64,000 nucleotides of DNA from Dactylorhiza incarnata. Taxonomy: Eukaryota > Streptophyta > Magnoliopsida > Asparagales > Orchidaceae. Position numbers and translations under genes: made by a program. Below the pieces are notes generated by a model that saw nothing but the letters and a program-made list of their open reading frames with translations, did no database searches and was not told the origin of the DNA. The DNA is taken from positions 310,001 through 374,000 of the forward strand of contig JAWHQI010000525.1 of assembly GCA_033032865.1 (NCBI GenBank), written 5' to 3'. Positions 1 through 64,000 of this stretch are shown one piece after another; within the stretch, counting starts at the first letter, position 1, and each line of letters opens with the position of its first letter.

Positions 1-512
1 GAGAGAGGATTCTTTTTACAAAGCCCTAATTGATTCTTTTATACTACCCCTGGCTTTCAACGGCTATTATATGTCCTCCTGACACAGCATGGGAGAGATT
101 GGAACATCCCTTCTTTCTTTACAGGTGTTGCGCCAAAAGTAAAGCTCGTCAGTTATTTTGAAACTGTCTCAGCGGCTGGGCTGAGACAGTCTCATGTCTC
201 TGCTACTGGATATGTTCCTTCTTAGCGAATCCGCTGAGACAGACAGTTGTCTCAACAGATTTTCCTTATCCGTAGCTCAACTGGCCTATACTTCTTCTCA
301 GCGACACCTGGTCTTGTCCCAGTGGTTCAGCTGAGATTGAGAGCTCGTCTCAGCGGTTTTGGCAGCAAACCAACTGAACTTTCTTCATACCCTGGTATGA
401 TCTAACCCTACATAGTCATGAGATAGAGTGGGGTTTATCAAATACAACTTATACTTAGCATTGAGAGTGAAGCCTCTTCAAATCAAGGGAACATTGAGGA
501 TCAGTTTCCCAA
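1..512 (-). mobile_element. L: partial SIRE-type copia LTR, cut by window edge
   Basis: This is the right-hand part of a copia LTR of the same family as the D LTRs at 54481 and 60747. Shared landmarks in the same order are the stretch around CTTTCAACGGCTAT, the GCGCCAAAAG block, the GTCTCAGC/GCTGAGAC cluster, and the ending with TTAGCATT, CTTCAAATCAAGG and ATTGAGGA before a degraded CCCAACA end near 510. No polypurine tract follows, so this is the 5' LTR of a minus-strand element lying to the left, or a solo LTR. Flanking DNA from 513 looks like gypsy LTR K. Confidence 0.7.
158..352. repeat. M3 inverted-motif cluster in LTR L
   Basis: Repeated CTCAGCGG and CTGAGACAG units in both orientations, including a GCTGAGACAGTCTCATGTCTC run. 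They form the same GTCTCAGC/GCTGAGAC inverted pairs seen in elements B, D and E. Confidence 0.8.
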
Positions 513-1363
513 TAGAAGCTTAGCTGTGTCATCAAGTATATATCGTTAAGACGCTAGCGCCGGGCGGTAGCACTACCACCGGTTGTAGGTATTCTCATTG
601 ATTTGACTCCCAGATCCGTCGAGAGAACAAGACGGTGTGCTTGAGGTTAAGTCCAAATCTAGTGCGGAGTGGTAGTACCACCGTTGGGCGGTAACTTACG
701 AGAAAAATCTGAGAAATTGAGATCGTGCGGTCAAATCTTTTATCTTTTTATCCAACGGCTGAGTGTTGTTTCGAGAGAGTTTTAGGGCTTGACCAGAGGA
801 TGTTTCTCCTTATTACTTCAAGTTATTTCTCTCGCCAAGGTTAAGAAAGAAGAGTGGCAAGGAAAAAGAAGGAGCTTCTTTCAGCTATAGACGAAATCCG
901 AAGCTCCGAATCGCAAGATATTTCCAGATCCACGGAGAGCAACCCGGTATGGTTCTTTTTATCTGATTGGAATCTCGGATTCACATGGCGCCAAAGAAAA
1001 ATGCAAGGGTAACGATCCTTCCTCTTTCGGAGAAGTGTCTCTTTCACCTAAAGGTGAACTGTAGGACTTCCTATAGTTCTTCGAAACTCCGGGTCAATTG
1101 TGTCCGTCCCTGACCCCGACATGTTTTGCATGTAGAAATCTGGTAGTCATACCGATTTAGGCATTTTGCGTGAAGCTTACCCGAGGTTGTGAGCCCGGAT
1201 CGGTGATGTTTTATTATGAAGTTGCATTTATGTTTAGCCTAGAATGCGTGCCAGAGAATGACTCCGAGAGATTTGTCATCATATTACAGGACTTAGTTTT
1301 AGTTGTCTTTCAGAGAGCCTAATAGTAGCCCCGTGCTTGGGTTATGGTTGAATGCAAACCTTC
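513..1363 (+). mobile_element. K: left part of a gypsy-type LTR
   Basis: This is non-coding DNA left of the insertion site of B; its continuation starts at 23536. CCTTC before B and CATTC after it agree at four of five bases, supporting one interrupted sequence. The right part ends in TGTTACA, as plant Ty3/gypsy LTRs often do. The piece holds two M1 modules. It also holds ATGGCGCCAAAGAA at about 985, fourteen bases identical to the start of the third ORF in element B; the frame from there is short and I do not call it a gene. Lineage is inferred from end sequence and style only. Confidence 0.45.
553..694. repeat. Two M1 modules in gypsy LTR K
   Basis: At 553-583 CTAGCGCC is followed by GGGCGGTAG and CTACCACCGG. 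At 661-694 GCGGAGTGGTAG is followed by TACCACCG and GGGCGGTAA. These match the modules in the LTRs of copia elements A and C and of gypsy LTR J. Confidence 0.8.
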
Positions 1364-2196
1364 TGATAGTTAATTTGGTAGTAGTCTAACTCATATAGAG
1401 GTGGGGGGGGGGGGGGGTGAATAGGTTTCTTTGCTTTTTCTAATTATAGTCGACTATTTTAAGTGATTTAGCAAAGTGGAGGAGAACACGGAAAAGCACA
1501 CAGCTATTTATAGTGGTTCCCCAAGGTCTGGGTACTCCACTTTCCCTCTCCACCTTTCTAACAGAGTGTTATAAGGCAATCTCCTCCAGCAACTCAGCTC
1601 AATGATCTTACAACACAAGTCCCTCAGTATTTCTCAAGTTTACTCCAAAACCCTAACTTAGGCCTTCCGCAATACCCTTAGACTTATCAAGAAGTCCTAC
1701 CTCAGAGTTCTCCAACTCCTACATCTCAGTGACCCACTTAGTTACCTACCTCAGGCCTATCAAGAAGCCCTACAACTCAGGCTTAGAGTACATCCCTACA
1801 ATCTCAGGCATATAGGCCTTACAGCTCAAGCACAAGGGCCCTACAACTCAGAATAGTAAAGTTCTTATAGAAATTGTTGATTCTAGTTTTACAACAGAAG
1901 AATAATTAAAAAAACCTTCAGCTTGACTCTTCTGTTATTGAGCACAATAGATGCCGTCTTGAAGCAGGGCTAGATAATAGCAGCTACAGACCTTGCTTGA
2001 CCTTATCTTCTTCTTCAGTAGAGGGAAGAAGATCAACTTGTACTAATGAATCAAATTAGCTAGAACAAACTATCTCTCTTGACTTTGTCTACTTGCAGCT
2101 TGAGAGAGATCACTTCACAGGTAGATGATGATCTTCAGCAGGTTCAAAAATGGTTCTTGCCATCAATTAGTGCTCTTCAATTTGCCCTAGCTATTT

Positions 2197-2204
2197 CTTT
2201 TATA
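2197..2204 (-). promoter_or_regulatory. TATA box in 3' LTR of B
   Basis: TATAAAAG on the minus strand, in the context GGTATAAAAGAAATAGC. The matching site in the 5' LTR is at 23069-23076. The M3 cluster lies 126 bases or more upstream of it, within presumed U3. Confidence 0.6.
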
Positions 2205-2329
2205 CCTACTCCAATCCTCAAAGGATCTTATGAGTGCCTAGTCACAGCATGGACAATAATAGAAAAGCTTATCTTACTTTCTAGTCCCTCCTGCAAAATT
2301 AGATCTCATCTGAGTAAAGGCCATGATTG

Positions 2330-2526
2330 AGTTTGTCTCAGTGGATGGGCTGAGACAGGCTTCAGTCTTAGCGGCTGAAACACTCTGCATCATTGTGGAT
2401 CTGCTGAGACAGGTAGTCTTCTCAGCGGTTAACTCAGCGTGTTGCACAGCTAAGACAGACCTCTTCTCAGCAGCTATACAGCTGTGTCTCAGCTAATCAG
2501 CTGAGACAAGACTTTTATCTCAGCTG
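2330..2526. repeat. M3 inverted-motif cluster in 3' LTR of B
   Basis: Several GTCTCAG and CTGAGACAG units in alternating orientation with CAGCGGTT-type cores. The counterpart in the 5' LTR lies at about 23202-23400, with single-base changes between copies. Confidence 0.85.
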
Positions 2527-2661
2527 ACCTTGTTAATGAAAGAGTCAATACAAAGCATGTATAAACATGAAATAGAAATGGCTTATCAAAAACAATATGA
2601 ATGTAGCATTTTGTGATGCATCTTCAAATCTAGGGAACATTGAGAGGCAATATTCCCAACA

Positions 2662-5420: not shown

Positions 5421-5877
5421 ATGAGTCGTTGATATGGGGGAAAGGAAAGGTTGTCTCAACAGCTGGATTAGGTTTAGGGTTTATAAAAGTATAATTAACA
5501 CTGCTCTATTTATAAAGATTTAGTTTAAATTTTCCCTAGAGAGAGGCGATGATTTGACTTATTAATTAATTGATCTAATTAAAATAGCCCGTCTTAGTTG
5601 ATCTGCTGAGATGGATCGATAAACTGTTGGGTCATGATAATATTAACCGATGAGACTGTCTTAACTGTCTCAGCGGTTCAGCTAAGACTCTCTCAGCTGT
5701 CTCAGTGGTTTAGCTGAAAATTTCTCAGCTGAACACACTGACTAACAGTGAACCATTTTAAATAGGATTGTTTTAAGTCCTAACTAGACACTAAGAGTTT
5801 TTTTAAGTAGCTAACATATCCTAGCAGAGATTAAGATACACATAAAATGTATTATGAACAGTATGAAATGTAAGTGA
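5421..5877. other. Spacer between RNase H and third ORF of B, with M3 cluster
   Basis: No coding potential. Bases 5588-5745 carry the M3 motif again: CTGCTGAGATGG, TGTCTTAACTGTCTCAGCGG, CTCAGCTGTCTCAGTGG and TTTCTCAGCTGAAC. The LTR motif of this family therefore also occurs outside the LTR, downstream of pol. Confidence 0.75.
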
Positions 5878-10342: not shown

Positions 10343-12059
10343 TGTTGGATCTGTAGGCGCCCTTAGAGGGGGGGGGGGGGTGAATAAGGGTTTTAAGATT
10401 TTTGAGATTATTTAGAGAAATTAATTCTTTGTTGCTACCGCCAGCGGTAGAGTTACCGCTCTGCGTTAGCGTAAGTGAAACTTGCTTTTAGGTTAGAACA
10501 ATGAAAATCCTTAAGCACGAATCAGAGATATAGAGACAAACATATTTTCATTTAATCATTGACTTGAAATAAATATGATTACAAAAATTTTCCCAATAAC
10601 GCTTGGAAAGAGGCGACCAATGAAAACTCTTTTGGTTTTCTATACCGATCCTTCTCCTAAGGACCGGTTGGCTTTAGCCTATCTCTCCCTAGACAAGGCC
10701 TCAAGCCGTTCTAGCCCTTCCCTCACCGGAAAGGCCTCAAGCAGTCCCTAGATCTACAGCGTAGACCTAGTCGACAATGCGAGGTGAATTTCCCCTAGTC
10801 CCCGCATGGCCCTAGTCGCCGTGTGACGAATTCCTCTACAAAACAAAAGATATAAAAATTACAATTTGAAAACTAAAACAACACAAAAACTAAGACTCCC
10901 TCAAATGAAGAACTTGATGTAGATATAGATACGATCGGATCGGTCTTCAAGTTCTTTGCGTTCACAAACGTTGACGGAGTTATTTTGGCTGCTTGGGAAG
11001 GCTCTCACGAGTGCTCTAAAAATATGGCTTCAAATCGTTCTAGGACAGCAAGCAACAACGGACGAGGCATGCGTCTTTTTATAGAATCAGCCACTACCGT
11101 CTGCGGTAGTACTACCGCCCCGCGGTATCCACATTAGGCAATTAAGAACACGGATCGTGGTAGTTTAGGCAACATTTTGAGCGCCAAACACTAGAGCATC
11201 GTGGTACCCCTAACGCCCCGCGATAGTGAGATAACCTTCCTTCATCCACAATCTCCTTCCAAATCTGCTCCTCAATCAACTGCAGACGAGAAGTTTCCAA
11301 AAGCTACCGCCGGGCGTTAGTCCTTAACACGCCGCGATAGTACTTGCCAAAATAGCGTCCCATCGACATTCCTTTTTCTCCACTGTTTCCTTTACCTCAA
11401 ATGTTTCCATTTATGCTAGTGCCAGCGGTAGTGCTAATGCGCCGCAGTAGCAACATCTGTCATCAATTTTTGTCGACCAACATTTATTTTGGTCGAACAC
11501 ATTTCGTCGAGCACCATCTTCGTCGAACGCCGCTTTCATTTCGTCGACCTCCATTTCATCGATCGCTGCTTTCATTTCATCGACCTTCATTTCATCGATC
11601 TCTAGCGCTAGCGGTAGTTCTAACGCGCTGTGATAAAGCATGCACTTCGTCAAGCGCCGTGGTAGAGCGTGCAGTTCGTCGAATGCAGGTTTCATTTCAT
11701 TGAACGCCAGTTCGTCGAACGCAGCTTCCATTTCGCCGAATGAACACTAGCGCCAGCGGCAGTTCTGACGCTATGCGGTAGAGTATTTCGTCGGGAGCAT
11801 CTTTGTCTAACCGGCCTCACATTTCATCGAGCGCAACTTTCATTTCCGTTCTCAGCGGTTTCCTTCTCAGCGATTTCTTCTCAGCGATTGTTAGCGCCAA
11901 CGGTAGTTCTAACGCACCACGGTAGCAACAACAAAAACACATTTCCATGGAGATTTGAAAGCACAGAATCCTGCATACTATAAACACAAAACAAGTATGA
12001 TCAAATACAATAGGATTTGTTATTGTCAAACCAAGAGATGTGGAAAGCATGTTCCAACA
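10343..12059 (-). repeat. 3' LTR of element A
   Basis: 1717 bases, aligned end to end with 19216-20925. It starts TGTTGGATCTGTAGGCGCCC, has a G-run and GTGAATAAGGG, and ends AAGCATGTTCCAACA. Many differences from the 5' LTR are CG to TG or CA changes, for example TTTCATCGA here against TTTCGTCGA at 20418-20465. This fits loss of methylated CpG. Confidence 0.93.
10437..11932. repeat. M1/M2/M3 motif arrays in 3' LTR of A
   Basis: At least eight M1 pairs occur at 10437, 11090, 11195, 11304, 11417, 11607, 11749 and 11890. They are built as CTAGCGCCAGCGGTAG-type units followed by CTAACGC and GCGGTAG. M2 units (CGTCGA or CATCGA) fill 11468-11830, partly as a 20-24-base tandem series around TTCATTTCATCGA. 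Three CTCAGCG units (M3) lie at 11850-11890. Most of the array is on the U3 side of the TATA box at 11076-11083. Confidence 0.88.
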
Positions 12060-14152
12060 AACTCCCCCTTTTGATAATAACAAATCCCCTTAGAAAGAAA
12101 TAATTCAATTGATAGGAATTTGTGTTTATAATAGAGAACGAACATAGATAGCATGAAAATTAGGCATGTTCAAATGCTCCCCCTAAATGAATTCTCCCCC
12201 TAAGTGAATGCTCCCCCTACAACAAAAACATCCTATGAACATGACTCCCCAAAAGATGTTAATTTCTTTCAAATTTATTCTCCCCCTTTTGGTATTATCA
12301 AAAGAGGGTGGAGAGTTAGTCCAACAAAAAAGTGTGCAATAACTGTGTAGAGAGAGAATGATCATGATAAAGAGTGAAACGCTTAGGAAAAATACAATAG
12401 ATAGGAGATAAAAAGAAAGGAATATGAAGAATTTTTCATAAAGAAACCACTTGTTAGGACAACGTATTCATGATCGAGCGTACAAGTAGTAGCATGATGA
12501 AATACTTTTTGTAAGGGAACATCTATATAGGAATTGTGAAGCATAGTAGATGATTAAGAATTTTAGACATAAAAAAATAGATGTTGTAGCATTTTAAGTA
12601 CACAAAATAATTTCAGTTGTAACATAGCCATATACTAGTTTTGAAAGGTCTGCAATACATAGTTCTCATGGCGTAGCGGAAAAAATATGTAAGCATGATA
12701 CAAGATATAAAGTCAAGATGGAAGAATAGAATGTTCTAAATTGCGAAACCAAGTACACTTATACATTGTATTGATCATGCAAGGCTATCTAGTGCATTTA
12801 CTTAAGAATTTAGAGAATACATGTAGATATGCAATACACTCCAATTCTCATGAGTAGAAGGCTTACAAGTGATAATGATGTCTACAAAATAGTATTTTTG
12901 ATAAAGGTATACATATGAGTTAATCAAAACACATGACATGTATAATGGAATAAACACAATATTATTGAAAAAGCATTTTTAGAGTTACTTCTACCCACAA
13001 AGCTATATAAATTATTCAATGCACATAGAAAAATAGTACAACTACCAAGGTGCTCTGCACACACAATGCTTATTAAGACTTATCAGGGGTACAATGTAGT
13101 GCTTGGGGAATCACAGTTATTATTTTGAAATTTAGTTATTTGTGATCCAGTGTACAAGAAGAAGTAGTGTAGAAAGAAATGTTTGCAACAAGGCACTTTA
13201 CAATTCTCTCCAAGGTGCTCAACCTCACAATGCTCATTAAGACTTATCAGGAGGGTGAGTAGTGCTTGGTGGAGTTATCTTTGTCAACTAATCATTTTAA
13301 TTTTTTCTTAACGACAATAGTCTCCGAATTCACTTGTATGTGCAAACAAAAGATTTTTGAAAAGACACACTTCTTCAAAAAAATAGGTGCATGAAAAAGA
13401 TTTTTACTTGTGGTGTAGGTAAACTAAGCATGCATAACAATAATATTAAGTTTTTACACTACACAATCAGGAAGGAGAAGATTAAATTCATATGTAGTAT
13501 ATCAAAAAGGTGTGAGTGAAAAAAAATCTTTTGCAAATATAAGCCATTTACTCATACATAGAGGCATGCTATGCAATACTACACATGATTTCTATAATCA
13601 ATTTCAAAGCACTAATAAGATAATGATCAAGGCATGATACAAAAACAATGTTATTAAGATACTTGAAATAGAGAATGAAACATTGTATACAAAACTTGGC
13701 AAGATAAATCATATCATCCTTGAAACATCAGTTTTTATAAATTTTAAGTTTTACAAAAATAATAATAATAATAAAATAAATAAAAAGCATGTTTTTGTTG
13801 TTTGATTGGTTTTTTCAATTTTGTAGTTGGTTTTGATATATAAAAAAACAAAGCATGTTTATGGTTGAATTTTGATTTGTTTTACAGTTTTTTGTGTTTA
13901 GAATTTTTAAAAGAAAATAACAGGAACTGAAAAATAAAAAAATAAAAGAGAAAATAGGAAATTCAGAAATGACCCACTACCGCCAGCGGTACCCAGCTAT
14001 GGCTGAGCGGTAGTGACAAAACTCAAATTTTTGGAAAAGCATAAAAATTTTCAGAATTTTTCTTTTGAAATTAGTTGTGCAGATTAATGACAACGTAGTT
14101 CAGTAAAGAAATAAGACATATGCATACACAAAAGTGCAAATTTCGCAAGTTC
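12060..14152 (-). other. Long 3' untranslated region of A
   Basis: 2.1 kb with no ORF, conserved with 28187-30238 of element C. From the LTR side it contains: several purine tracts (CTCCCCCT on the plus strand at 12062, 12178, 12193, 12210 and 12281) resembling extra polypurine tracts; two copies of a roughly 69-base direct repeat at 13046-13114 and 13210-13278 (landmarks CAAGGTGCTC, TTATCAGG, TAGTGCTTGG); and an M1 inverted pair at 13976-14014 (CACTACCGC and GCGGTAGTG). Only non-coding function is plausible. Confidence 0.75.
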
Positions 14153-17223: not shown

Positions 17224-19140
17224 CTAACAAGAAGATGAGAGTAAAGATCCGGATACCCAGGTGGTTCCTCCCATAGAATAGGTGGAAACCTTAGGCACCC
17301 AGATTTGCTTGACAGTACATCGACCCTTCATCCTGCAGGATTCCAAGGTATGCCTGAAGTGATGGCACTTGGCACATAACACAAAAGGGGTTGAGACCTT
17401 TTTCAGTTTTTGTTGTGGACTCTTGCTGGAGGATGGGGAATCAGCAGAATAAATTCCAGATTTGTGATTATTCGATGAATTATGAGTTTTGTTACTACCG
17501 CCAGCGTTAGAAGTTACCACCGGGCGGTAGTTAGCAGAGACAAAACCTAGACCAGTTTTTGCACTACCATGCCTTTGGTTGGCCAAAATCATATCAAGAC
17601 TTTTCTAGCCAACACCGAATTTTTCTATGGCTAAGTTAAGGTCATGGATTTTAGCTTTTAATGCAAAATTTTCACTTACTAAATTTCCACATCTATTTGC
17701 AAAAAATTTCTTTTCATTTTCAACATTAGAAAGAGAGAGTTTCAAATTTTTTTCTAAGTCTCTCTTTTGTTTCGAGAGTGATTCAATATTGGAGAGAGCA
17801 TTAGAAAGATCAGTTTCAAGTTTGTTGGTCCTTGCCAAGAGATCATCATTCTTTTGGAAAGACTCCATTTCCTTTCCCAAGGCAAAAACTTCCTTACTTA
17901 ATTTTTGATTTTGTTTCAAAAGAATTTTATTTTCAGTTTTAAGTAGATCAAGATCTTTAAAATTTTTGCCAAAAGATTTGCAAGTTCTTAAGTATTCGGA
18001 ATATAGATCATCATAGTTAGAGGGGATTACCTCAGTGTCGCTTTGGACACTGCACTCGTCATCGGTTGATTCATTGCTTTTTCCCATAAGGCACAAGTTT
18101 GCCTCATCATCATCGCTTGAGCTTGAAATACTTGGGCACCTGGAGGAAGAGTCATCCCATGTTGCTACTTTTAAGACCTTCTTCTTCGCCTTTCCTTTAA
18201 CCCATTTTTCTTTTTGCTCCTTCAGGAATTTTGGGCATTGACTTCTAATATGCCCGGTCTTCCTATAGTGGAAGCACTCAGGAGGTGGCCGCTCTTCGTC
18301 GTCGTCGCTAGACTTCTCATTCTTCTCTCTTTTGGATGAGGAGCCCTTTCGGAAAAATTTCCGGAAGGTGTTCCTCCTTTCCAGATTCTTCATGAACTTA
18401 GTGAAGTTCTTCATGAAGAGACTCTCCTTATCATCTTCCTCGTCGTCATCTTCTTTTCTTGACTTCAGTGCCAAGTCTTTCTTCTTTGGTTCCTTGTTGT
18501 ACTCACTTCTTGAATCTTGAGTTCTACCTCATGGGTTTTGAGGTTCCCAATGAGGCTCTCAATTTGGAGCCACCTAAGATCATGTGATTTGGAAATCGCC
18601 GTCACCTTTAGATTAAACTTTAGTGGGAGTGATCGAAGATGCTTTCTCACCAAGTTGCCGTTTGGAAATGTTTTTCCAAGAATTTATGAGGCATTGACGA
18701 TCTTAGTGAATCGAGTGTACATGGCGTCGACGTCCTCATTTGGATCCATCCTGAACCTCTCAAATTCAGATTCCAGTTGGAATAACTTTGAATCTTTGAC
18801 CTGCGAGGTGCCTTTATGCATTATTTCTAATAAGTTCCAAATATCATAAGCAGTTTCACATGCACTTACTCAATTAAATTCAATCCTGTCAAGAGCACAG
18901 AACAAAGCATTCATTGCTTTCGCATTATTCTTACACATAGCCTTATCTCCATCATACCATCTATCCCTTGGTTTTTCCATGGTTACTTCTCCAACAATGT
19001 ATGTAGGAGAAGTGTATGGAGTTTCAATACATGCCCATACATCTAGATTTAAGTTTATCAGAAAACAACACATACACGTTCTCCAGTAATTATAATCAGT
19101 TTTGGTAAACAACGGAGGTCTACTTATTCCCCGCCCCTAA
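17224..19140 (-). pseudogene. gag: gag of element A
   Basis: The N-terminal copia gag domain starts around TDYNYWRTCM (19112) and runs to KLFQLESEFERFRMDPNED, with stops near 18870 and 18690. It is followed by an open stretch of 289 codons (18474-17605) with a basic part, a zinc knuckle CFHYRKTGHIRSQC in which the second Cys is Tyr, an acidic serine-rich part and a long coiled coil. The last part (17592-17224) has a second, intact knuckle CAKCHHFRHTLESC. The gag segment NYRPVVTSNAGGSN between coil and knuckle is encoded by an M1 inverted pair (17494-17530). Confidence 0.87.
17494..17530. repeat. M1 pair inside gag of A
   Basis: CTACCGCCAGCG and CCGGGCGGTAG flank 12-14 bases inside the gag frame. 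The arms can pair as CTACCGCC with GGCGGTAG, allowing one substitution. C has the same feature at 33617-33652 with perfect 8-base arms. Confidence 0.8.
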
Positions 19141-19215: not shown

Positions 19216-20925
19216 TGTTGGATCTGTAGGCGCCCATAGAGGGGGGGTGAATAAGGGTTTTAAGATTTTCGAGATTATTTAGAGAAATTAATTCTCTGTT
19301 GCTACCGCCAGCGGTAGAGTTACCGCTCTGCGTTAGCTTAAGTGAAACTTGCTTTTAGGTTAGAACAATGAAAATCCTTAAGCACGAATCATAGAAATAG
19401 AGACAAACATATTTTCATTAATCATTGACTTGAAATAAATATGATTACAAAACTTTTCCCAATAATGCTTGGAAAGAGGCGACCAATGAAAACTCTTTTG
19501 GTTTTCTATACCGACCCTTCTCCTAAGGACCGGTTGGCTTTAGCCTATCTCTCCCTAGACAAGGCCTCAAGCGGCTCTAGCCCTTCCCTCACTGGAAAGT
19601 CCTTGAGCACTCCCTAGATCTACAGCCTAGACTTAGTCGCCAACGCGAAGCAAATTTCCCCTAGACCCCGCAACGCCCTAGTCGCCGTGTGGCGAATCCC
19701 TCTACTGAACAAAAGATATAAAGATTATAATTTGAAAACTAAAACAACACAAAAACTAAGACTCCCTCAAATAAAGAACTTGATGTCGATGTAGATATGA
19801 TCGGATCGGTCTTCAAGTTCTTTGCATTCACAAATGTTGACAGAGTTCTTTTGGCTGCTTGGGAAGGCTCTCACGTGTGCTCTGAAAATATGGCTTCTAA
19901 TCGTTCTAGGACAGAAAGCAACAACGGAGGAGGCGCGCGTCTTTTTATAGAATCAGCCACTACCGCCTGCGGTACTACTACCGCCCCGCGGTATCCACAT
20001 TAGGCAATGAAGCACACGGATCATGGTAGTTTAGGCAACATTTTGAGAACCAAACACTAGCGCGCCGCGGTACCGCTAACGCCCCGCGATAGCAAGATAT
20101 CCTTTCTTCAGCCACAATCTCCTTCCAAATCTGCTCCTCAATCAACTGCAGACGGGAAGTTTCCAAAAGCTACCGTCGGGCGTTAGTCCTTAACGCGCCG
20201 CGATAGTACTTGCCAAAATAGTGTCCCGTCGACATTCCTTTTTCTCCACTGTTTCCTTTATGTCAAATGTTTCCATTTATGCTAGCGCCAGCGGTAGTGC
20301 TAACGCACCGCGGTAGCAACACCTGGCATCAATTTTCATCGACCGGCATTTACTTTGGTCGAACACATTTCATCAAACACCATCTTCGTCGAACTCTGCT
20401 TTCATTTCGTCGACCTCCATTTCGTCGATCGTTGCTTTCATTTCGTCGACCTTCATTTCGTCGATCTCTAGTGCCATCGGTAGTTCTAACGCGCCGCGGT
20501 AAAGCATGCACTTCGTCGAGCACCATGGTAGAGCGTGCAGTTCGTCGAACGCAGGTTTCATTTCGTCGAACGCCAGTTCGTCGAATGCAGCTTACCTTTC
20601 ATCGAACGAGCACTAGCGCCAGCGGTTGTTCTGACGCTACGCGGTAGAGTATTTCGTCGGGTGCATCTTCGTCGAACTGGCCTCACATTTTGTCGAGCGC
20701 AGCTTTCATTTCCGTTCTCAGCGGTTTCCTTCTCAGCGGTTTCTTCTCAGCGGTTGTTAGCGCCAACGGTAGTTCTAACGCACCGCGGTAGCAACAACAA
20801 AAACACATTTCCATGGAGATTTGAAAGCACGGAATCCTGCATACTATAAACACAAAACAAGTATGATCAAATACAATAGGATTTGTTATTATCAAACCAA
20901 GAGATGCGGAAAGCATGTTCCAACA
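19216..20925 (-). repeat. 5' LTR of element A
   Basis: 1710 bases, TGTTGG to CCAACA. It carries the same M1, M2 and M3 arrays as the 3' LTR (M1 units from 19301 to 20790, M2 at 20337-20690, M3 at 20715-20755). The motif copies here are less decayed, with CGTCGA and CCGCGGTA largely kept. Confidence 0.93.
19942..19949 (-). promoter_or_regulatory. TATA box in 5' LTR of A
   Basis: The minus strand reads TATAAAAA in the context CTATAAAAAGACGCGC. The 3' LTR has it at 11076-11083. Nearly all motif units lie on its U3 side (19950-20800). Confidence 0.55.
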
Positions 20926-43898: not shown

Positions 43899-44101
43899 TC
43901 CCTACCCAAATAGGTAGAGGGGAAATAAATGCGTGAGCGAGTCCTATCCAAATGGATAGGCGGGAAATAAATGCGTGACGAGTCCTATCCAAATGGATAG
44001 GCGGAAAATAAATGCGTGACGAGTCCTATCCAAATGGATAGGCGGGAAATAAATGCGTGATGAGTCCTATCCAAATGGATAGGCGGGAAATAAATGCGTG
44101 A
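43899..44101. repeat. 41-base tandem array with M5 hairpins
   Basis: Four perfect CCTATCC-AAAT-GGATAGG inverted repeats (arms at 43943-43949 and 43954-43960, then every 41 bases), joined by GGAAATAAATGCGTGACGAG-type linkers. A variant first copy has CTACC-CAAAT-AGGTAG at about 43901. Copies are nearly identical, so the array expanded recently. Confidence 0.9.
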
Positions 44102-45665: not shown

Positions 45666-45773
45666 AAAAAGAAGTGATTATTTCAATGATTTAAAAGCAA
45701 TATGTACAAAATTACCCAAAATTAGGCTAGAAATGATACTAAAAATATGCATAATTTGTTATTCATCAGAGTT

Positions 45774-46103
45774 CAACGAAATCACATGAATTTGTCGAAC
45801 GGAGATCGACGAACGCTGAATACAGACTTTCAGTACAGCTATTCTTCAAACGGCGCTCGTTGAAATCACTTCAATTCGTCGAACGGTGATCGGCAAACTC
45901 AGCCAAGTTTGTCGAACAGAAATTGTACTGAATTTCAAAAGAATTTTAATTCTCAACATACTAAGAATCCCTTTACTGAGTGGATTATTCCTCCAAGGAG
46001 ATATCATCCACAAGGCTATAAGGATCAGCCTGAGATTTCTTACATTTCAGAATTTTGTGGTAAGACAAAAGGACCCAAGGTAGTCTGGGTCAAGAACAAC
46101 TAG
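45774..46103 (+). pseudogene. gag: gag of G, last fragment, with coding M2 units
   Basis: Resumes gag after insertion I. The first 150 bases are made of M2 units (TTTGTCGAACGGAGATCGACG at 45790, TTCGTCGAACGGTGATCGGC at 45875, TTTGTCGAACAG at 45907) and are read as NLSNGDRR, NSSNGDRQ and SLSNRN. The end NSQHTKNPFTEWIIPPRRYH to GKTKGPKVVWVKNN is the usual gag-protease linker. One stop interrupts the repeat part. Confidence 0.7.
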
Positions 46104-49295: not shown

Positions 49296-49627
49296 AAAGT
49301 ATATCTTCTACTTATCCCCCATTTCGTCGAACGGAGATCGACGAAATCTAGTCATTCGTCGAATGGAGATCGACGAAGCCTATTAGCTTCAGAGATCGAC
49401 GAAGTCAGCTCGATCGTCGAACTGAGATCGACGAAAATTCACTTTTCTTCGAATGCAGTTTGATGAAGCCTAAACTCTTCGACTTTTAATTTTATTAGGT
49501 TTAGCCGACCTCAGTTCCACGAATTTTTGCTCCTTCTCCGATCTCTTTCCTTATAATCAAATTTTGATTCTTTTTCGTCTTTGCGCCTAAAGAACTTGCT
49601 CTTGCTTTTCCCTCCAGTTCCCTTGCA
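49296..49627. other. Post-pol region of G with M2 array
   Basis: No ORF. TTTCGTCGA (49322-49330) and TCGACGAAA (49338-49346) are perfect 9-base inverted arms around ACGGAGA. Four further, partly decayed units follow to about 49478. The rest is a T-rich stretch in which TCTCTTTCCTTATAAT occurs at 49539 and again near 49632. That duplicate marks the unclear junction to LTR E. Confidence 0.7.
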
Positions 49628-49774
49628 CTTGATCTCTCTTTCCTTATAATAAGTACAAGATGTATTTTATAAAGCCATATTTTTGTAAGATATACAGGCT
49701 CAGGTAACTCAAGAGAAAGGGTCAATCATGCCCTTAGATCAGGAGAAATCATCTCCTAAGAGATGAAGGGTTGT

Positions 49775-50330
49775 CTCAGCTGAACCGCTGAGACAAGGTC
49801 AGGAGCCGCTGTGAAGGCATCTGGGCAAGATGAGCTGTAGATAGAAGAAACTGCTGAGACGGCTGTCTGTCTCAGCGGATCCGCTGAGATGGGAAAGAAG
49901 CAGCAAATATCTGTTGAGATTTGGCGAGTTCGTCGAACACAGAATGCAGTTCGTCAAACGCTGAGACATGGCGGGTTCGTCGAATGAAGAATGAAGTTCG
50001 TCGAACGCAGAATGCAGTTCATCGAACGCTGAGACTTGGCGGGTTCATCGAACGAAGAATGAAGTTCGTCGAACGCAGAACTCAGTTCATCGAACGCAGA
50101 GACGGGACAAAAGCAAGCGCTGAGGCTCGGCGTGTTCGTCGAACGCAGAACTCAGTTCGTCGAATGCAGAGATGGGACAGAAGCAAGCGCTGAGGCTTGG
50201 CATGTTCATCGAACGAAGAATGAAGTTCGTCGAACGCATAATGTTGTTCGTCGAACGCAGAAACTTCTCTGCAGATTGACAAAATCCGCTGAGAATAGGA
50301 AGCCATCTCAGCCCAACCGATGAGATACTT
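49775..50330 (+). repeat. Mixed M3 and M2 arrays in LTR E
   Basis: The M3 part (49775-49905) includes the perfect 18-base palindrome CTCAGCGGATCCGCTGAG (49871-49888). M2 units (49926-50262) have the form GTTCGTCGAACGCAGAATGC, with GGCGGGTTCATCGAAC variants. A last M3 pair is at 50282-50328. The array ends about 120 bases upstream of the TATA box. Some units fuse both motifs (CGTCGAACGCTGAGAC). Confidence 0.87.
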
Positions 50331-50448
50331 CAAACGAGACATGGCGGGTTCTGCCCTTGGCGCAAGCTGCAAAAAAGCATTATGGGGTCCAGCAGTCACT
50401 CCCATATCTGTCAGAAGGATGGTTGAGAGCCGTTGAAGATCGGGGATC

Positions 50449-50456
50449 TATAAAAG
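50449..50456 (+). promoter_or_regulatory. TATA box in LTR E
   Basis: TATAAAAG in GGGGATCTATAAAAGGGAT. It is the presumed promoter core, with the motif array in U3 upstream and the 68-base repeats in R/U5 downstream. Confidence 0.65.
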
Positions 50457-50869
50457 GGATAAATTAGGGTTGAGAAAGAACTTCTGCCATCAATCTTTCT
50501 CTCGAGCACACAAAGAAGCGGAAGTGTACTGTTCCATTGTCGGTAGCCAAGAACTGTGCTAACACAAGGGTGCAACAAAGAGATAGCTCATCTTGATTCA
50601 TCTCAAGATAGAGCAAGTAGATCCAGTCCTTCATCTGAAGTGCTGATCTAGTAGAATCAACATTGGATCTGTACCACTCCTCCTTGATTCAAGTCTGCAG
50701 CAACAGCTGAAAAGAAGAAGAGGAACAGGCTTCATCTTTTCTTCTTTCATTCTGTAAACCTCATTATATCTTATGTATGAGCCTTTGGGTTCTGAGTTTG
50801 TAGGGCCATTTGGTCTGAGGTTGTAGGACCAGCATGTGGTCTGTGTTGTAGGAGGTGGATTCCTCTGAG

Positions 50870-51060
50870 GTAGGATCTGTATGATCTGAGGTAGGACCAG
50901 GAGGTGGTCTGAGCTGTAGGAGGTGGATTCCTCTGAGGTAGGATCTGTGTGATCTGAGGTAGGACCAGGAGGTGGTCTGAGCTATAGGAGGCGGTTTCCT
51001 CTGAGGTAGGGTTGTTGTGTCTGAGGTAGGGTTTGGGAAAACCTGAGAGATCCTGAGGGA
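50870..51060 (+). repeat. 68-base tandem repeat in LTR E
   Basis: Copies begin GATCTGAGGTAGGACCAGG at 50883 and 50951, with partial copies on both sides (50790-50860, 51010-51060). It occupies the same place as the 21-base CTCAGGCTCAATAGCCCTACA array of LTR D on the opposite strand, so this LTR segment expands repeatedly with different unit lengths. Confidence 0.8.
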
Positions 51061-51333
51061 TCTGTGTTGTAAGCTCTTGGAGCTGAGTTTGGAGGAGTTG
51101 GCCCTGTCTAACACACTGTTAGAAGGGTGAAGGGGGAAAGTGGACTACCCATAGACACACTGTCTTGGGGAACCACTATAAACACTTGTAGGTTTTCTGG
51201 GTGTGCTTGATTTCTTGCTTAGAATAATTTTAAATATCTATATCAAACAAGTAGAACTCAAAAGACCTATTCACCCCCCCCCCCCCCTCCCCCTCTAGGT
51301 GAATTAGATCATATACCTATATAATCTTTCAAG

Positions 51334-51972: not shown

Positions 51973-53635
51973 TGATGCGCAAATCTTAGTACACCGCTAT
52001 AGGCGGTAGCAAGACTGCGACACGAAATGGCAGTGTACCGATCGTTCAAGTAATATAAAATGTGGGAGTGAATCCCCAAGTATCGATCTCGAAGGAACAC
52101 AGTAAGGTGGAGTTAACTATTGAGGACGGACTTGAGATTGAAGTCCTTAAGTCGGATGGGTTGCGGAAACGGGTGTTTTGGTTGGTGGAAATAAAGAGAA
52201 AATATTACAACTACTCCAATGCAATGCCGCTATGCAATGCTTCGCTTGGCGGGATGGAGACTAGGCAGGCCTTGAGCGCGCTGCTTCGAAAAGGCGGATG
52301 GACGAGTAGGCAAGCGGAATCGAACTATGCAGGCCTTGAGCGCCCTGCTTCGTTAGGCGAATGGTTTACACGGGCCGCTATGCCACGCTTCACTAGGAGA
52401 ATGGACGAGAAGGCTTGCGGAATGAGGGTCGCAAGCACCTCGTCGACAAGCACGCCACTAGCAATTGCTAGTGCGGCATACGAATGTGACGGCGGAATGG
52501 GAAATGGATGGCGGCGCACCTCATACACACATATAGACAAAAAGATACATTCACATAGACATGAAATAACTTTATAAGGCAAGGTCTATAGTGTTCATCA
52601 TCTAAATACAAAGGATTTAACAATTACAACACAACATACAAAGAAGGAGAAAGTGAGGAATCGACCGAATCCGAAGTCTTGCTGAGAGTTCACGGTTGGA
52701 ATCGCTGGGTTGTCAATCCGCGTCCAAGCTCGGTCCTCAACTGCGTCCGGGGTAGAGGAGGCTGTCACTACCACCCAATGGCCCATCTTCTTCGTGTCAC
52801 GATTCAACCACACAACCAAGCTTCCTTCTCCTTGGATATTGGTGGATGAAGAGCTAGATCCTTCTCCTTGGAGCTTGAGGATGATGGAGGAGGCCTAGGG
52901 CCAAGCCTTCATGGAAAGGTGCAGGTGTACGGAGCTGGAACTCCTTTTGCGGCGGAAAAGGCGGAATAGATGTACGATCCCCAATTTAGGTCGAAAGCTG
53001 CAGCTTTTATAGAGAAAGATCAGAAAATAGGTCACGCACGGTCGAACGCACGACCGTGCGTAGACTGTGCGATATTAATAATAGAGAACAACGCAGGAAG
53101 ATGACCTGGAGCGCCCGTGCGATTTACTCGCGCACGGGAAAATCTGCCCGTGCGTCAAAATGCATGGGTAAATTCAGAAAAGCTAAAATCAAGGCTAAAC
53201 AGGCTGATCGTGCGATTCCTTCACGCACGGGCAACTGCCCGTACGTAAAAGACGCACGATCAAAATCAGATCATGATTTTCTACCCAGATGAAGGCGCAC
53301 GACCACGTCTATCCGTGCGTCAATAAAAACGCACGACCGTGCGTTGTACACAGTCATGATTTCTGGGCAAAAGGGGATGGATCAGCCACCTGCGAGCATC
53401 GCAGCCTAGCTGGGAATACACATCCAGCACCATCATAAAAATAGAAATAACACGATGGGGAGCAGAGTGTGCTTACCCCCAGCAACATAGTGTGTAATTG
53501 CACACTACAACAGGCACTTCAAGCACAAGTATGAACAAGGTGAAAAATAAACAAATACGAACAAAAACTGAGGAACAAAAGCAGGAAAAACAGCCCGGAT
53601 GAGTCCGAAAAATAGTATATAAATTGGACTCATCA
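51973..53635 (-). repeat. 3' LTR of element F with M4 motif
   Basis: Bounded by TGATG and CATCA. The left part (AGTACACCGC, GCAGTGTACCGATCGTTCAA, GTGAATCCCCAAGTATCGAT) resembles LTRs of Tat/Ogre-type elements. The right end is AATTGGACTCATCA. It contains a diverged tandem pair around GCAGGCCTTGAGCGC (52264 and 52330). No coding assigned; an open frame at 52062-52577 has no recognised domain. Confidence 0.65.
53034..53346. repeat. M4 inverted motifs in LTR F
   Basis: ACGCACGGTCG (53034-53044) and CGACCGTGCGT (53051-53061) are perfect 11-base inverted arms with a 6-base loop. Further GCCCGTGCG, CGCGCACGGG, CCCGTGCG, CACGCACGGGC, GCACGATC, GGCGCACGACC, CCGTGCG and CGCACGACCGTGCG copies follow to 53346. 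The array sits near the middle-right of the LTR, on the U3-like side for a minus-strand element. Confidence 0.87.
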
Positions 53636-54480: not shown

Positions 54481-54779
54481 TGATAGTTTGTTAGTATGCT
54501 GATTAATTTACCTAGAGGGGGGTGAATAGGTCTCTTATTCGTTTCTTTTGTGCAGACTATTAGTTTTCTAGTTTAGTTCAGGGAAAACATCAAACACAGA
54601 AAGCACACACTAATTTATAGTGGTTCCCCAAAGACAGTGTGTCTATGGGTAGTCCACTTTCCCCCTTCACCCTTCCAACAATGAGTTAGACAGGGCCAAC
54701 TCCTCCAATTTTCAATCTCAGCTCCTTGAGCTTACACCACAAGTTCCTCAGAACTTCTCAGATCATGAATGATCCTACC

Positions 54780-54960
54780 TCAGGCACAGCAGCCCTACTC
54801 TCAGGCTCAACATCCCTACACTCAGGCTCAATAGCCCTACACTCAGGCTCAATAGCCCTACACTCAGGCTCAATAGCCCTACACTCAGGCTCAACAGCCC
54901 TACACTCAGGCTCAGCAGCCCTACACCTCAGGCTCAGCTGCCCTACACCTCAGAGTTCTG
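54780..54960. repeat. 21-base tandem repeat in 3' LTR of D
   Basis: Seven to eight copies of CTCAGGCTCAATAGCCCTAC plus A, the last ones diverged. The 5' LTR has the same array at 61043-61222 with single-base differences. It lies downstream of the TATA box in R/U5. Confidence 0.92.
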
Positions 54961-55527
54961 CAACTCCTACAACTCAGAAATCCAGCAGATTTCCTACCTC
55001 AGACTTGTCAAGAAGTCCTACTACTCAAGCTGTCAACACAGCTTTACACACTGGCTCAACAGCCTTTTTCTCAGGCAACAATGCCTTACAAAGGTATAAT
55101 AAAGTTTGAGTTGAACATTAGAGTACAAAAGGATTACTCTTAGGTCATCTGAGTCCTTTCTTCAGATCTGAAAACACCAGCTTCAGATTTGTATCACTTT
55201 GATCTTCTTCTTCAGTACAGCCGAAGATCAACTTGCCCTTCTTGAGTTTGTACAAGAAAAGCTATCTAATCTCCCTTAGAAGATTAACTTCAGCTGCAGA
55301 GAACGATTTCGACAGGCTGAATCGTGAATGCTCGATTGCGGCGTGTTGCAAAAGCTTCTTAATCGAACAGTATACTTTGATGTGCCCTAACATCTCCTTT
55401 TATACCCCCAAGAGGCTTCAACGGCTATATCGATCCTCCTGACACGGTATGGAGCTGAGTTGACTTGCTTTTCACCTTTCAAATATCGTTTGCGCCAAAA
55501 GTAGATCCCGTCAAAACGTTTGGATCT

Positions 55528-55681
55528 GTCTCAGCGGTTGGGCTGAGACAGCATCCAGCCTCAGCGGCAGCTCCAGTCCCCTTCTCAGCGATTGCTCCAG
55601 TCTTCTTCTCAGTGGACCCGCTGAGACGGCTCCTCGTCTCAGCGGTTCTGACCCATCGTCTCAGCGGTTATGCTGAGACAG
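55528..55681. repeat. M3 inverted motifs in 3' LTR of D
   Basis: GTCTCAGC (55528-55535) and GCTGAGAC (55542-55549) are perfect 8-base arms around GGTTGG. Further units: CTCAGCGGCAG, CTCAGTGGACCCGCTGAGAC, GTCTCAGCGGTT and GCTGAGACAG. The 5' LTR has them at 61791-61944. The cluster is 124-284 bases upstream of the TATA box. The overlapping hexamer TGTCTC/GAGACA equals the classical auxin response element. Confidence 0.9.
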
Positions 55682-55859
55682 ATCTTCATCTCTTTGTGGA
55701 TGATTCCTTCTTGTCTAAGGTCATGTTTGGCCCTTTCTTTTGAGTTACCTGTGTCTGTATATTCTACACAAGTGTAGCTTTGTTAAATACAATATGTCCT
55801 TAGCATTAGGAGTGATGCCTCTTCAAATCAAGGTTATATTGAGGACAATATACCCAACA

Positions 55860-58205: not shown

Positions 58206-58223
58206 TATCTTGCAATAGGGATA

Positions 58224-60744: not shown

Positions 60745-60746
60745 CT

Positions 60747-62122
60747 TGATAGTTTGTTAGTATGCTGATTAATTTACCTAGGGGGTGAATAGGTCTCTTA
60801 TTCGTTTCTTTTGTGCAGACTATTAGTTTTCTAGTTTAGTTCAGGGAAAACATCAAACACAGAAAGCACACACTAATTTATAGTGGTTCCCCAAAGACAG
60901 TGTGTCTATGGGTAGTCCACTTTCCACCTTCACCCTTCCAACAATGAGTTAGACAGGGCCAACTCCTCCAATTTTCAATCTCAGTTCCTTGAGCTTACAC
61001 CACAATTTCCTCAGAACTTCTCAGATCATGAATGATCCTACCTCAGGCACAGCAGCCCTACTCTCAGGCTCAACAGCCCTACACTCAGGCTCAATAGCCC
61101 TACACTCAGGCTCAATAGCCCTAAACTCAGGCTCAATAGCCCTACACTCAGGCTCAACAGCCCTACACTCAGGCTTAGCAGCCCTACACCTCAGGCTCAG
61201 CTGCCCTACACCTCAGAGTTCTGCAACTCCTACAACTCAGAAATCCAGCAGATTTCCTACCTCAGACTTGTCAAGAAGTCCTACTGCTCAAGCTGTCAAC
61301 ACAGCTTTACACACTGGCTCAACAGCCTTTTTCTCAGGCAACAATGCCTTACCAAGGTATAATAAAGTTTGAGTTGAACATTAGAGGACAAAAGGATTAC
61401 TCTTAGGTCTTCTGAGTCCTTTCTTCAGATCTGAAAACACCAGCTTCAGATTTGTATCACCTTGATCTTCTTCTTCAGTACAGCCGAAGATCAACTTGCC
61501 CTTCTTGAGTTTGTACAAGAAAAGCTATCTAATCTCCCTTAGAAGATTAACTTCAGCTGCAGAGAACGATTTCGATAGGCTGAATCGTGAATGCTCGATT
61601 GCGGCGTGTTGCAAAAGCTTCTTAATCGAACAGTATACTTTGATGTGCCCTAACATCTCCTTTTATACCCCCAGAAGGCTTCAACGGCTATATCGATCCT
61701 CCTGACACGGTATGGAGCTGAGTTGACTTGCTTTTCACCTTTCAAATATCGTTTGCGCCAAAAGCAGATCCCGTCAAAACGTTTGGATCTGTCTCAGCGG
61801 TTGGGCTGAGACAGCATCCAGTCTCAGCGGCAGCTCCAGTCCCCTTCTCAGCGGTTGCTCCAGTCTTCTTCTCAGTGGACCCGCTGAGACGGCTCCTCGT
61901 CTCACCGATTCTGACCCATCGTCTCAACCGTTATGCTGAGACAGATCTTCATCTCCTTGTGGATGATTCCTTCTTGTCTAAGGCCATGTTTGGCCCTTTC
62001 TTTTGAGTTACCTGTGTCTGTATATTCTACACAAGTGTAGTTTTGTTAAATAAAATATGTCCTTAGCATTAGGAGTGATGCCTCTTCAAATCAAGGTTAT
62101 ATTGAGGACAATATACCCAACA
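60747..62122 (-). repeat. 5' LTR of element D
   Basis: 1376 bases. The TATA box is at 61660-61667 (minus strand TATAAAAG), the 21-base array at 61043-61222 and M3 units at 61791-61944. It differs from the 3' LTR at only scattered bases and in G-run length, indicating a young insertion. Confidence 0.95.
61660..61667 (-). promoter_or_regulatory. TATA box of D
   Basis: TATAAAAG on the minus strand in GGGGGTATAAAAGGAGATG. It is the promoter core that would transcribe D. Confidence 0.65.
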
Positions 62123-62949
62123 CACGCACTAGAACTATCCTATGTCTATGCTTCGAGAATCGCTTGGGGCAAGTTCTTAGCCACCGAGAAAGATTTTCTT
62201 TCCTCCTGACTCGAGCAATACGAATCTAACAATCATTTACACACATCCCTATGCTACCATTTGATTTACACCGGATTCACCATTTGAGTAGAGTAAACAA
62301 TATTTATGCTAACAGAAATGCATAAAGCTAGCGGTATAAAAGAGAAATCTAATCTACATGAATCCCTATACTCACATGAGTATTTGACTAGAAACACCGG
62401 AGTCAACATTTTATTCCACTACATAATTTTAGAAGCTAGCACAATCATTTTCCAAACTACAAAAAGGAATGAGTTATACTCGCGACGCACTAAAGGTTAC
62501 GTACGCGCTCAAGTGGGTGCATTGTGTGCAGACAAAATGAACAAAAGTAATTTAAATAAAGACTTCTAGCATGCTAAATAAATGTGCACGTGAGTGGGTA
62601 TACAAACAGATCTCCCCCAGACTTAAACTATGCATTAAGATATTCTAAAACAAAGTTAGGGGAAGAGGGTACCCAATGCTCAGCTAGTAAGCATGTCGGA
62701 AGCCTGGAGTGAAGCTCTACGAAGAATCACAACCACCGCCTTCACAAATAGAAAATACCTGCAAGTGGTTGTCTCTGCAAAAACAAACTGACATAAAATC
62801 TAGTAACTAGTTAGAGTAGGCGATAAAATAAAAGACAAGAAAAAGTAAGATAACTAATGGGGTTATTGTCATCCCAGCACGACTTATTCAGGAAGGCGAG
62901 GGTCTTAGATAATGGGAGTATGGAAAGAGAAGTGGACAGGCAACTGTTC
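62123..62949 (-). other. Internal region of F between gag and D insertion
   Basis: The right TSD of D (CACGC, 62123-62127), then 0.8 kb non-coding DNA. A plus-strand frame of 87 codons has no family resemblance. On the minus strand this is directly downstream of gag, where protease and RT would be expected; neither is seen. Confidence 0.55.
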
Positions 62950-63980
62950 TTATTCCTGTGTCGGTAGCGAGTACCGATACGGTGATAGAACCACTACCCC
63001 TCTACCTAAATAATAATACCTGCTAGACACAGGTAGAGGAGAGAGAAAGAAAGAGGTGGAGGGAGAGTCCTCCACTCTACTTTCACCAAAATAAATTTCC
63101 TTGCCTAGCAAGGTGTCATCTTCAGGGAGGCAGCAGGAGGGGAATACAATACACGGCATATCCTCTGTGGAGGGGGAATTAACCTCCTCACACAAGAAGA
63201 CGTGCGCAGCACTGAATGGTGCAGTTTGCACCACCTCCTGCATAACCTGTGAAGGCTCGAACTGCATAGGCTCGGAAAGGGAAGGGGGGTCAAGAAATAA
63301 AAGGGAAGAATGACATAAACAATCAAAAATCGGGGGAGTGGTCCCGGTCTCACTCCCATTAGATTGGGGAAGTAAAATAATGTCGGCATTGTTGACAATG
63401 CTACAAGGTTCAGCGGGATCAACAGTGGCCATGCCCAAGAGTCGGACTTCCTCCACCAGTGCCGAGGAAAGCTCCTCTTCACCTAGAAGGTTGTCCTCCT
63501 CCATAGGAGCAGGCATAACACATAGATCGCCAGCCTCATCCTGCGACACATCCTCAACATTGTCGTCAGAGACGAATGTAGTATGCACAACAGGGGGAGG
63601 AATAGTGCTTGGATAAAAGTCAAGCACCGATTCCTCATAAAGAGTCGAATCCATGCACGGTGATATATGTACAAGGGAGATGGGCTCCGAAATGTCAGAG
63701 TCTAGATCATCCACACATGCATCTGGTGACTGTGTCCACGTCATCCCCTTCAAAACTTGAAGGTGAAATGGCCACATAACTAGATGTTGAAGGTGTGCTG
63801 CCAGAAGTAGGAGTCAGGATGATCCGGATATCCGGCTCGTCATCCTCGTCCATTTGGCAAAGGAATGCAGCACAATCCTTAAAGGCATGATCCATGCTCC
63901 AACAAAACAAGCACTGTTTTGCATTTTTCTTTGTCTCAAATTGAACCGGAGATGAATGCGAAAAGGGAATGTGCGGAGCG
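62950..63980 (-). pseudogene. gag: gag-like ORF of element F with one zinc knuckle
   Basis: A CX2CX4HX4C knuckle CLFCWSMDHAFKDC is encoded at 63913-63872, followed by an acidic part (DEDDEPDIRI) and a Ser/Thr/Pro-rich part. A frameshift near 63720 joins it to a 275-codon frame that continues to 62950 with many Asp, Glu, Ser and Pro and no further motif (DDLDSDISEPISLVHISPC, PAPMEEDNLLGEEELSSAL). This looks like the C-terminal part of a gypsy gag with a long disordered tail. Its N-terminus lies beyond the window. Confidence 0.6.
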
Positions 63981-64000
63981 GATGAGTAGTCGTAGGACTT

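Follow-up and report, generated by a model that had tools for sequence, protein, structure and literature searches.

Arrays of palindromic motifs upstream of the TATA box in the long terminal repeats (LTRs) of Sireviruses, a genus of Ty1/copia retrotransposons, were published in 2010 (Bousios et al., PMC2829016). That paper describes a repeated motif (RM) that is palindromic, CpG-rich and present in high copy number in the upper LTR, with additional copies in the linker that precedes env; a CGG-CCG core occurs in 12 of 13 published RMs, and the RM is called Sirevirus-specific in a comparison with classic Ty1/copia elements. The cis-regions of maize Sireviruses are described as variable and palindrome-rich (Bousios et al., 2016, via PMC5311732 and PMC10760457), and Retand gypsy elements carry tandem arrays of family-specific, non-genic repeats between pol and the 3' LTR (PMC11963269). 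Here, we analyzed a 64,000-nucleotide stretch of the orchid Dactylorhiza incarnata (contig JAWHQI010000525.1, positions 310,001 to 374,000; hereafter the window), in which an original prediction had described six classes of short inverted motif, M1 to M6, repeated within or beside retrotransposon LTRs. The pattern is true, well supported and mostly already known, as most of the arrays are known Sirevirus RMs; the part worth following is a spaced M1 module that occurs in unlike elements.

The window is plant DNA packed with nested LTR elements, and self-comparison gave the LTR pairs A, B, E and F. The LTRs that carry M1, M2 or M3 are listed below (3 or 5 after an element's letter denotes its 3' or 5' LTR; PPT, polypurine tract; PBS, primer-binding site).

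1..520, minus strand: P, partial M3-type LTR
1364..2661, minus strand: F3, 3' LTR of Sirevirus F; PPT AGGGGGAGATTG at 2671
10343..12059, minus strand: A3, 3' LTR of Sirevirus A with M1 modules and M2 sites; 92% to 19216-20925; PPT AGGGGGAG at 12069
19216..20925, minus strand: A5, 5' LTR of Sirevirus A; PBS at 19213
22234..23535, minus strand: F5, 5' LTR of Sirevirus F; 88.6% to 1364-2661
26553..28186, minus strand: B3, 3' LTR of Sirevirus B; 93.5% to 35335-36796 over the aligned part; terminal PPT altered
35335..36822, minus strand: B5, 5' LTR of Sirevirus B, start missing; PBS at 35332
49640..51331, plus strand: LTR of Sirevirus G, 5'-truncated, with M3 and M2 sites; PBS at 51334; copia gag at 51491-52009
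54481..55859, minus strand: E3, 3' LTR of Sirevirus E with M3 array; 98% to 60747-62122; PPT AGGGGGAGATTG at 55869
60747..62122, minus strand: E5, 5' LTR of Sirevirus E; PBS at 60744

Exact half-sites were counted in each LTR and in 300 dinucleotide shuffles of it. The expectation that motif counts would exceed such shuffles held: M1, M2 and M3 half-sites beat 300 of 300 shuffles in every carrier LTR, and half-sites of M4 to M6 were enriched as well. M1 occurred 8 times in A3, 8 in A5 (shuffle mean 0.14), 9 in B3 and 5 in B5 (means 0.13-0.14, maxima 2); M2 occurred 5 times in A3, 10 in A5 (mean 0.08), 5 in B3, 8 in B5 and 8 in G (means 0.05-0.09, maxima 1-2); and M3 occurred 4 times in F3, 2 in F5, 6 in E3 (mean 0.09), 5 in E5, 6 in G and 4 in P (means 0.02-0.10, maxima 1-2). 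Neighboring half-sites on opposite strands at most 12 nt apart exceeded the shuffle maximum in 13 of 15 sets (for example, 17 versus 0.04 for M1 in A5, 9 versus 0.03 for M4 and 4 versus 0.02 for M5), the M2 pair counts partly reflecting a self-dyad in which one motif matches both strands. The predicted inverted pairs were not above the maximum in either M6 set, and motif-blind exact 7-bp stem-loops exceeded it in only 4 of 10 LTRs (E3, E5, G and P); the enriched thing is therefore the recurring half-site rather than stem-loops in general. What can be relied on is that a half-site recurs, arranged in dyads. Position was scored in A5, B5, E3, F3, G and the M4 LTR described below, where 94 of 106 half-sites lie upstream of a TATA-like box (M1 in A5, 26/31; B5, 20/24; E3, 9/11; M3 in F3, 11/11; G, 13/14; M4, 15/15).

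The LTRs of A, B, E, F and G belong to Ty1/copia Sireviruses by several hallmarks, whereas two further M2 carriers, C and D, can be placed only as copia. Copia domains were found in A (RVT_2), F (RVT_2 and gag_pre-integrs) and D (copia pol domains); Retrotran_gag_2 scored 58.4 bits in G and 30.1 and 25.6 bits in two open reading frame (ORF) pieces of E (cut-off 27); and the reverse transcriptase (RT) relatives of B are of Ty1/copia type, B being 89-90% identical to A. AGGGGGAG tracts precede the 3' LTR five times in A and four times each in E and F, with one more at 6753 in F, while B keeps three upstream copies and its terminal tract is altered to AGGGTGAG. The last PPT is followed by AT/TG in E and F and by TT/TG in A and B. 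The string TGGTATCAGAG, which we take to be the Met-tRNA primer site, follows the 5' LTRs of A, B and E and the LTR of G, and is one base off in F. An inverted repeat at the PPT/3' LTR junction scored 31, 31 and 32 in A, B and E against shuffle maxima of 24, 24 and 22 (the B window lying a few bases off its tract), and 17 in F, below the maximum of 26. Runs of 6-15 C lie near the 3' end of all five LTRs examined (A5, B5, E3, F3 and G), in which 79 of 91 half-sites form palindromic RM arrays upstream of TATA. The CGG-CCG core is present in M1 and in M3, a dyad of the form GTCTCAGCGG-n2-CCGCTGAGAC, and absent from M2. P is probably a partial Sirevirus LTR, judging from its similarity. M3 was also considered as a gypsy motif and rejected, as its carriers show Sirevirus hallmarks. 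The best examples of the design (A, B, E, F, G and P) thus fall within one copia genus, contrary to the statement that unrelated copia and gypsy elements all show it; that statement is saved in part by two non-copia elements that probably show it too, according to terminal and 3'-end signatures.

With the fourth base left free, M1 reads as a module of four alternating half-sites, CTANCGC n3 GCGNTAG n2-4 CTANCGC n2-3 GCGNTAG, spanning 35-37 bp; its commonest form, CTANCGC n3 GCGNTAG n2 CTANCGC n2 GCGNTAG, places the half-site centers 10, 9 and 9 bp apart. Allowing at most 4 mismatches, we found 37 modules in the window and 0 in 30 shuffled windows: 8 each in A3, A5 and B3, 6 in B5, 2 each in the internal parts of A and B, and 3 in two other regions, X and Y. 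The 3-2-2 spacing is kept in 24 of the 37, comprising 21 in A/B on one strand and the 3 in X/Y; 8 of the 37 have symmetric spacing and hence no direction. The modules outside the A/B LTRs, and the region Y, are as follows.

554..588, plus strand: M1 module in X, 3 mismatches, spacing 3-2-2; profile E 3.1e-4
659..694, plus strand: weak M1 module in X, 5 mismatches; profile E 0.089
13977..14013, minus strand: M1 module about 140 bp past the A pol stop, spacing 3-4-2
17495..17530, minus strand: M1 module in the A gag/pol linker, spacing 3-3-2, inside open frame 17224-17604
26346..26380, plus strand: M1 module in Y, 2 mismatches, spacing 3-2-2; profile E 8.5e-4
26457..26491, plus strand: second M1 module in Y, 3 mismatches, spacing 3-2-2; profile E 0.055, other strand 0.012
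30064..30100, minus strand: M1 module about 140 bp past the B pol stop, spacing 3-4-2
33618..33653, minus strand: M1 module in the B gag/pol linker, spacing 3-3-2, inside open frame 33347-33862
25273..26552, plus strand: Y, from an LTR start TGTAACATCCC to the end of the B LTR, lineage provisional

A stop codon lies just upstream of the open frame 17224-17604. At the place after pol that matches the internal modules of A and B, F holds an M3 cluster and D holds M2 sites.

The profile behind these E values was trained only on the 14 modules of A5 and B5, and its hits at 26457 and 660 are weak. One Y module duplicates the other in tandem (97 bp at 79%); 61 bp separate the pair from the B LTR's outer end, and the pair may thus be Sirevirus-derived flanking DNA. 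The LTR start TGTAACATCCC at 25273 lies 713 bp from an LTR end, GGGTGTTACA, at 24559; the ORF listing for these 713 bp contains no open frame of at least 110 aa, and one frame of the stretch before 25273 translates as NLNFGDEI. The TGTAACATCCC start, the GGGTGTTACA end and NLNFGDEI are, we assume, signatures of chromoviruses (Tekay/Del). When compared with Sirevirus hallmarks, X/Y starts with TGTAACATCCC rather than TGTTGG, ends with GGGTGTTACA rather than polyC and has no AGGGGGAG beside it. X and Y would accordingly be parts of a non-Sirevirus, chromovirus-like LTR with no coding domain left, as its termini and pol tail suggest. X joins the LTR end only across the inserted F, whose flanks GAAGG and GAATG agree in 4 of 5 bases. 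X and Y were found to match only in the 35-bp M1 module itself, so this match alone does not show the two to be one LTR. The modules of X/Y have the polarity of those in A/B if read in the sense of the X/Y LTR.

Motif cores are also shared between elements. In the A/B LTRs, M1 and M2 stand together with the M3 core, and G combines M3 with M2. Cores of M2 were seen in five contexts: A/B, C, D, G and the M6 region. The remaining M2 and M3 sites concerned are these.

5603..5731, minus strand: M3 cluster 3' of the F pol ORFs, 7 sites with at most 2 mismatches
41011..41291, minus strand: C, M2 array adjoining a copia pol fragment (38837-40859)
45773..45915, plus strand: D, M2 sites 5' of copia pol ORF 46129-47451
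49323..49452, plus strand: D (second region, D2), M2 inverted pairs directly after ORF 48633-49295

Shared 10-mers were compared for 78 pairs of 13 regions, with 100 shuffled pairs each, and 11 of the 78 exceeded every shuffled pair. A and G share 35 (shuffle maximum 14), of which 19 are M2-core words. M2 words also make up most of the sharing in A-C (14, maximum 9), A-D (20, 7), A-D2 (6, 5), G-C (31, 8), C-D (9, 5) and D-D2 (15, 3), while A-F passes barely (13, maximum 12), with 5 M3-core words; E-F, E-G and F-G pass as expected from common descent. Sharing did not exceed shuffles for A-E or for pairs that include X, Y, M4, M5, the M6 region or the LTR end; what links X/Y to the other elements is therefore the structure of the module. 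The word CCGCTGAGA occurs three times each in A5 and B5 and once each in A3 and B3 (shuffle maxima 1), and the C and G arrays align locally with a score of 87, a value without a control. M2 is a self-dyad, TTCG-N-CGAA, and separate true inverted pairs are plain in D; successive M2 sites lie exactly 21 bp apart in 8 of 12 cases in G and 6 of 10 in C. The proposal that each lineage has an array of its own does not agree with M2 in five contexts, the M3 core in A/B and a full M1 module in what appears to be non-Sirevirus LTR DNA. The same sharing of cores fits better with the accompanying suggestions of module capture and amplification or of selection for binding sites. Among viral contigs, the M2 string and the M1 pattern had 0 matches and no RT relatives were found; 7 contigs held one M3 dyad each, which we take as chance.

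The arrays resemble the published Sirevirus RM in copy number, palindromy, CpG content, position in the upper LTR upstream of TATA and the presence of extra linker copies (PMC2829016). The Inga RM AGCGGTASTACCGCT matches the center of the M1 module, and M3 carries the published CGG-CCG core (PMC2829016). They differ from what that paper describes in the sections considered in that M2 is without this core, M1 is a module of four half-sites, copies lie in the gag/pol linker, one module lies in DNA that appears to be a non-Sirevirus LTR, several motif types share one LTR and one motif occurs in several families. The maize cis-regions are variable and palindrome-rich like those here, but come with small-RNA data, whereas our comparison uses sequence alone (PMC5311732, PMC10760457). 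The Retand repeats share a family-specific, non-genic character, but are internal and tandem rather than dyads upstream of TATA (PMC11963269). Among the literature matches listed, with subscription papers and supplements mostly outside the scope, there was no report of a dyad module common to Sireviruses and gypsy LTRs, nor of gag/pol-linker copies; this silence is weak evidence of novelty.

We favor, with moderate confidence, the view that the arrays are cis-regulatory repeated-motif arrays of LTR retrotransposons, made of clustered dyad half-sites upstream of TATA. Enrichment, spacing, position relative to TATA, core sharing and a higher turnover by indels are observed directly. The position upstream of TATA, the M1 spacing of about one helical turn, the two-turn spacing of M2 in G and C and the CpG richness of the arrays favor arrays of binding sites. 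The observed/expected CpG ratio in the array versus the rest of the LTR was 1.50 versus 0.85 in A5, 1.46 versus 0.80 in B5, 1.30 versus 0.09 in G, 0.69 versus 0.21 in E3 and 0.25 versus 0.12 in F3. Gaps between the A5 and B LTRs amount to 13% upstream of TATA versus 0.8% downstream (the truncated B5 start left out), a faster turnover of arrays that agrees with maize Sireviruses (PMC5311732). DNA-binding factors of the host would most likely occupy the dyad half-sites as dimers or multimers, and the bound factors may drive or tune LTR transcription. Arrays would grow and turn over by local duplication, and modules may spread within elements, by a presumed route, to tolerant places such as the gag/pol linker and the DNA just past pol, and so come to occur in different elements.

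Several observations weigh against binding-site arrays. The LTR-pair constraint test gave fixed-to-within ratios of 31:35 for half-site cores versus 164:143 elsewhere (p 0.35), and purifying selection on half-sites was accordingly rejected as not significant. Relative to shuffles, RNA stability is raised in the E3, F3, G, C, M4, M5 and M6 arrays (z -2.9 to -4.4) and in the M1 modules past pol (A -2.7, B -2.3). Modules in the gag linker and after pol sit where no enhancer is needed, and the host binding factor is putative. M2 distances of exactly 21 bp account for 4 of 11 in A5, 3 of 8 in B5 and 0 of 8 in D. The 37 M1 modules count both LTRs of a pair and two related elements, independent events being far fewer, and the 8 symmetric ones enter the complementarity count below with arbitrary direction.

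A bolder form of the binding-site reading, which we put forward only tentatively, treats the M1 module (3-2-2, fixed polarity) and the cores of M2 and M3 as a common set of regulatory words. Unrelated LTR retrotransposons (copia Sireviruses and a gypsy chromovirus) would exchange these words or be selected for them repeatedly, and would copy them internally even into coding linkers, a kind of enhancer trafficking. If the same module drives the promoters of unrelated elements, either plant retrotransposons converge on certain host factors or promoter parts are exchanged between families. This could explain how Sirevirus LTR arrays differ so strongly under one kept design, and the fixed M1 spacing makes binding directly testable.

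The alternative that survives best, though we think it unlikely, is that hairpins of RNA (or single-stranded DNA) are the selected or consequential feature, folding to feed small-RNA silencing or to serve an RNA step. Against 50 shuffles each, arrays gave z-scores of -4.4 (E3), -2.9 (F3), -3.8 (G), -3.1 (C), -3.4 (M4), -3.3 (M5) and -4.2 (M6), and the region past pol gave -5.5 in F besides the values for A and B above; palindrome regions of maize Sireviruses are also small-RNA hotspots (PMC5311732, PMC10760457). The A5 and B5 arrays, however, show no gain in stability over shuffles (+0.3 and +1.8), D and Y reach -1.8, and non-array controls downstream of TATA gave -2.9 (B5), -2.0 (E3), -1.8 (A5), +0.9 (F3) and -0.7 (G). 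M2, a 9-bp dyad with a 1-nt center, is too tight to fold alone. Moreover, the free base of half-site 1 is complementary to that of half-site 2 in 7 of 37 modules, fewer than the 12.3 expected under permutation (0.9% of permutations as low), and in 4 of 21 versus 7.2 without A3 and B3 (4.0% as low); half-sites 3 and 4 showed no deviation (12 versus 10.6). The low complementarity and the A5 and B5 z-scores disfavor hairpins as a conserved feature of the A/B arrays, where arrays of protein-binding sites fit better. The suggestion of RNA hairpins is rejected as a general explanation, lacks support for the A/B arrays and is possible for the M3, C, M4, M5 and M6 arrays.

It is rather improbable that the motifs are a functionless by-product of mutation, arising and spreading via slippage, unequal exchange and template switching in reverse transcription. 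The commoner indels in arrays, the direct tandem repeats of 15, 21, 36, 41 and 68 bp and the lack of significant constraint on half-sites are what it would predict, but it leaves unexplained both the fixed half-site spacing with differing spacers and the location upstream of TATA in six LTRs. That M1 acts as a small mobile or recombining unit of its own, entering many elements, is very doubtful: besides its place upstream of TATA, the module occurs close to the 3' end of the LTR, in the gag linker, past pol and in X/Y, yet 34 of 37 modules are confined to A/B. Palindromes as insertion targets were dismissed as a small target-site effect that does not explain arrays (PMC6911290), and miR5564-like plant small RNAs sharing TTCGTCGAAC as a 10-base match only (PMC3464620, PMC10180537).

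The remaining motif classes lie as follows.

24617..24930, plus strand: M6, TTCGTCGA and TCACGTGA sites between the LTR end (24559) and the LTR start at 25273
43901..44103, plus strand: M5, 41-bp minisatellite of 4.9 copies
52600..53635, minus strand: M4 LTR, probable gypsy, far end not fixed; array at 53030-53350 upstream of TATA

M4 as first written occurs once exactly and twice as its complement; only a shorter half-site, CGCACGG, recurs (15 with at most 1 mismatch versus 2.4 in shuffles). On the minus strand this array precedes CTATAAAAGC in an LTR that starts with TGATGAGTCC at 53635 and has no polyC run near its 3' end. Motifs before the LTR resemble 3'-end signatures of Tat/Athila gypsy elements, so that M4 is probably the LTR array of a gypsy element. 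A 287-aa ORF assigned to this element gave no match in a Pfam scan; its one homologue, from Platanthera guangdongensis (37% identity), is itself without a Pfam match. M5 was rejected as an LTR array, being a single minisatellite. For M6, TTCGTCGA gave 8 half-sites versus 1.1 and 1 inverted pair, equal to the shuffle maximum, and TCACGTGA is self-complementary, so that its count of 10 means 5 sites. The idea of one common design stands for dyad half-sites, mostly upstream of TATA.

GCGTG flanks E on both sides, and E seems to be nested in the M4 element. With about 4.9 kb of internal DNA, copia gag and a pol domain in 0 of 4 ORFs scanned (54481-62122), E is perhaps a non-autonomous Sirevirus; a protein search with its ORF 58224-59828 found no match at E 0.001. 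Apart from the M3 array, the 3' part of the E LTRs holds a 21-bp tandem repeat of 8.5 copies (54774-54953 and 61037-61216). In E, G and P, a TTGGCGCAA block (55485-55505, 50350-50370 and 125-140), which presumably resembles an E2F site, follows the M3 array and precedes the TATA box. In D, one frame of the M2 repeats at 45773-45915 gives SSNGDR-like stretches with a stop inside, 5' of the pol ORF. Overlapping GC-rich tandem repeats of 113 and 42 bp occupy 44795-45053 and adjoin AT-rich repeats at 45195-45592.

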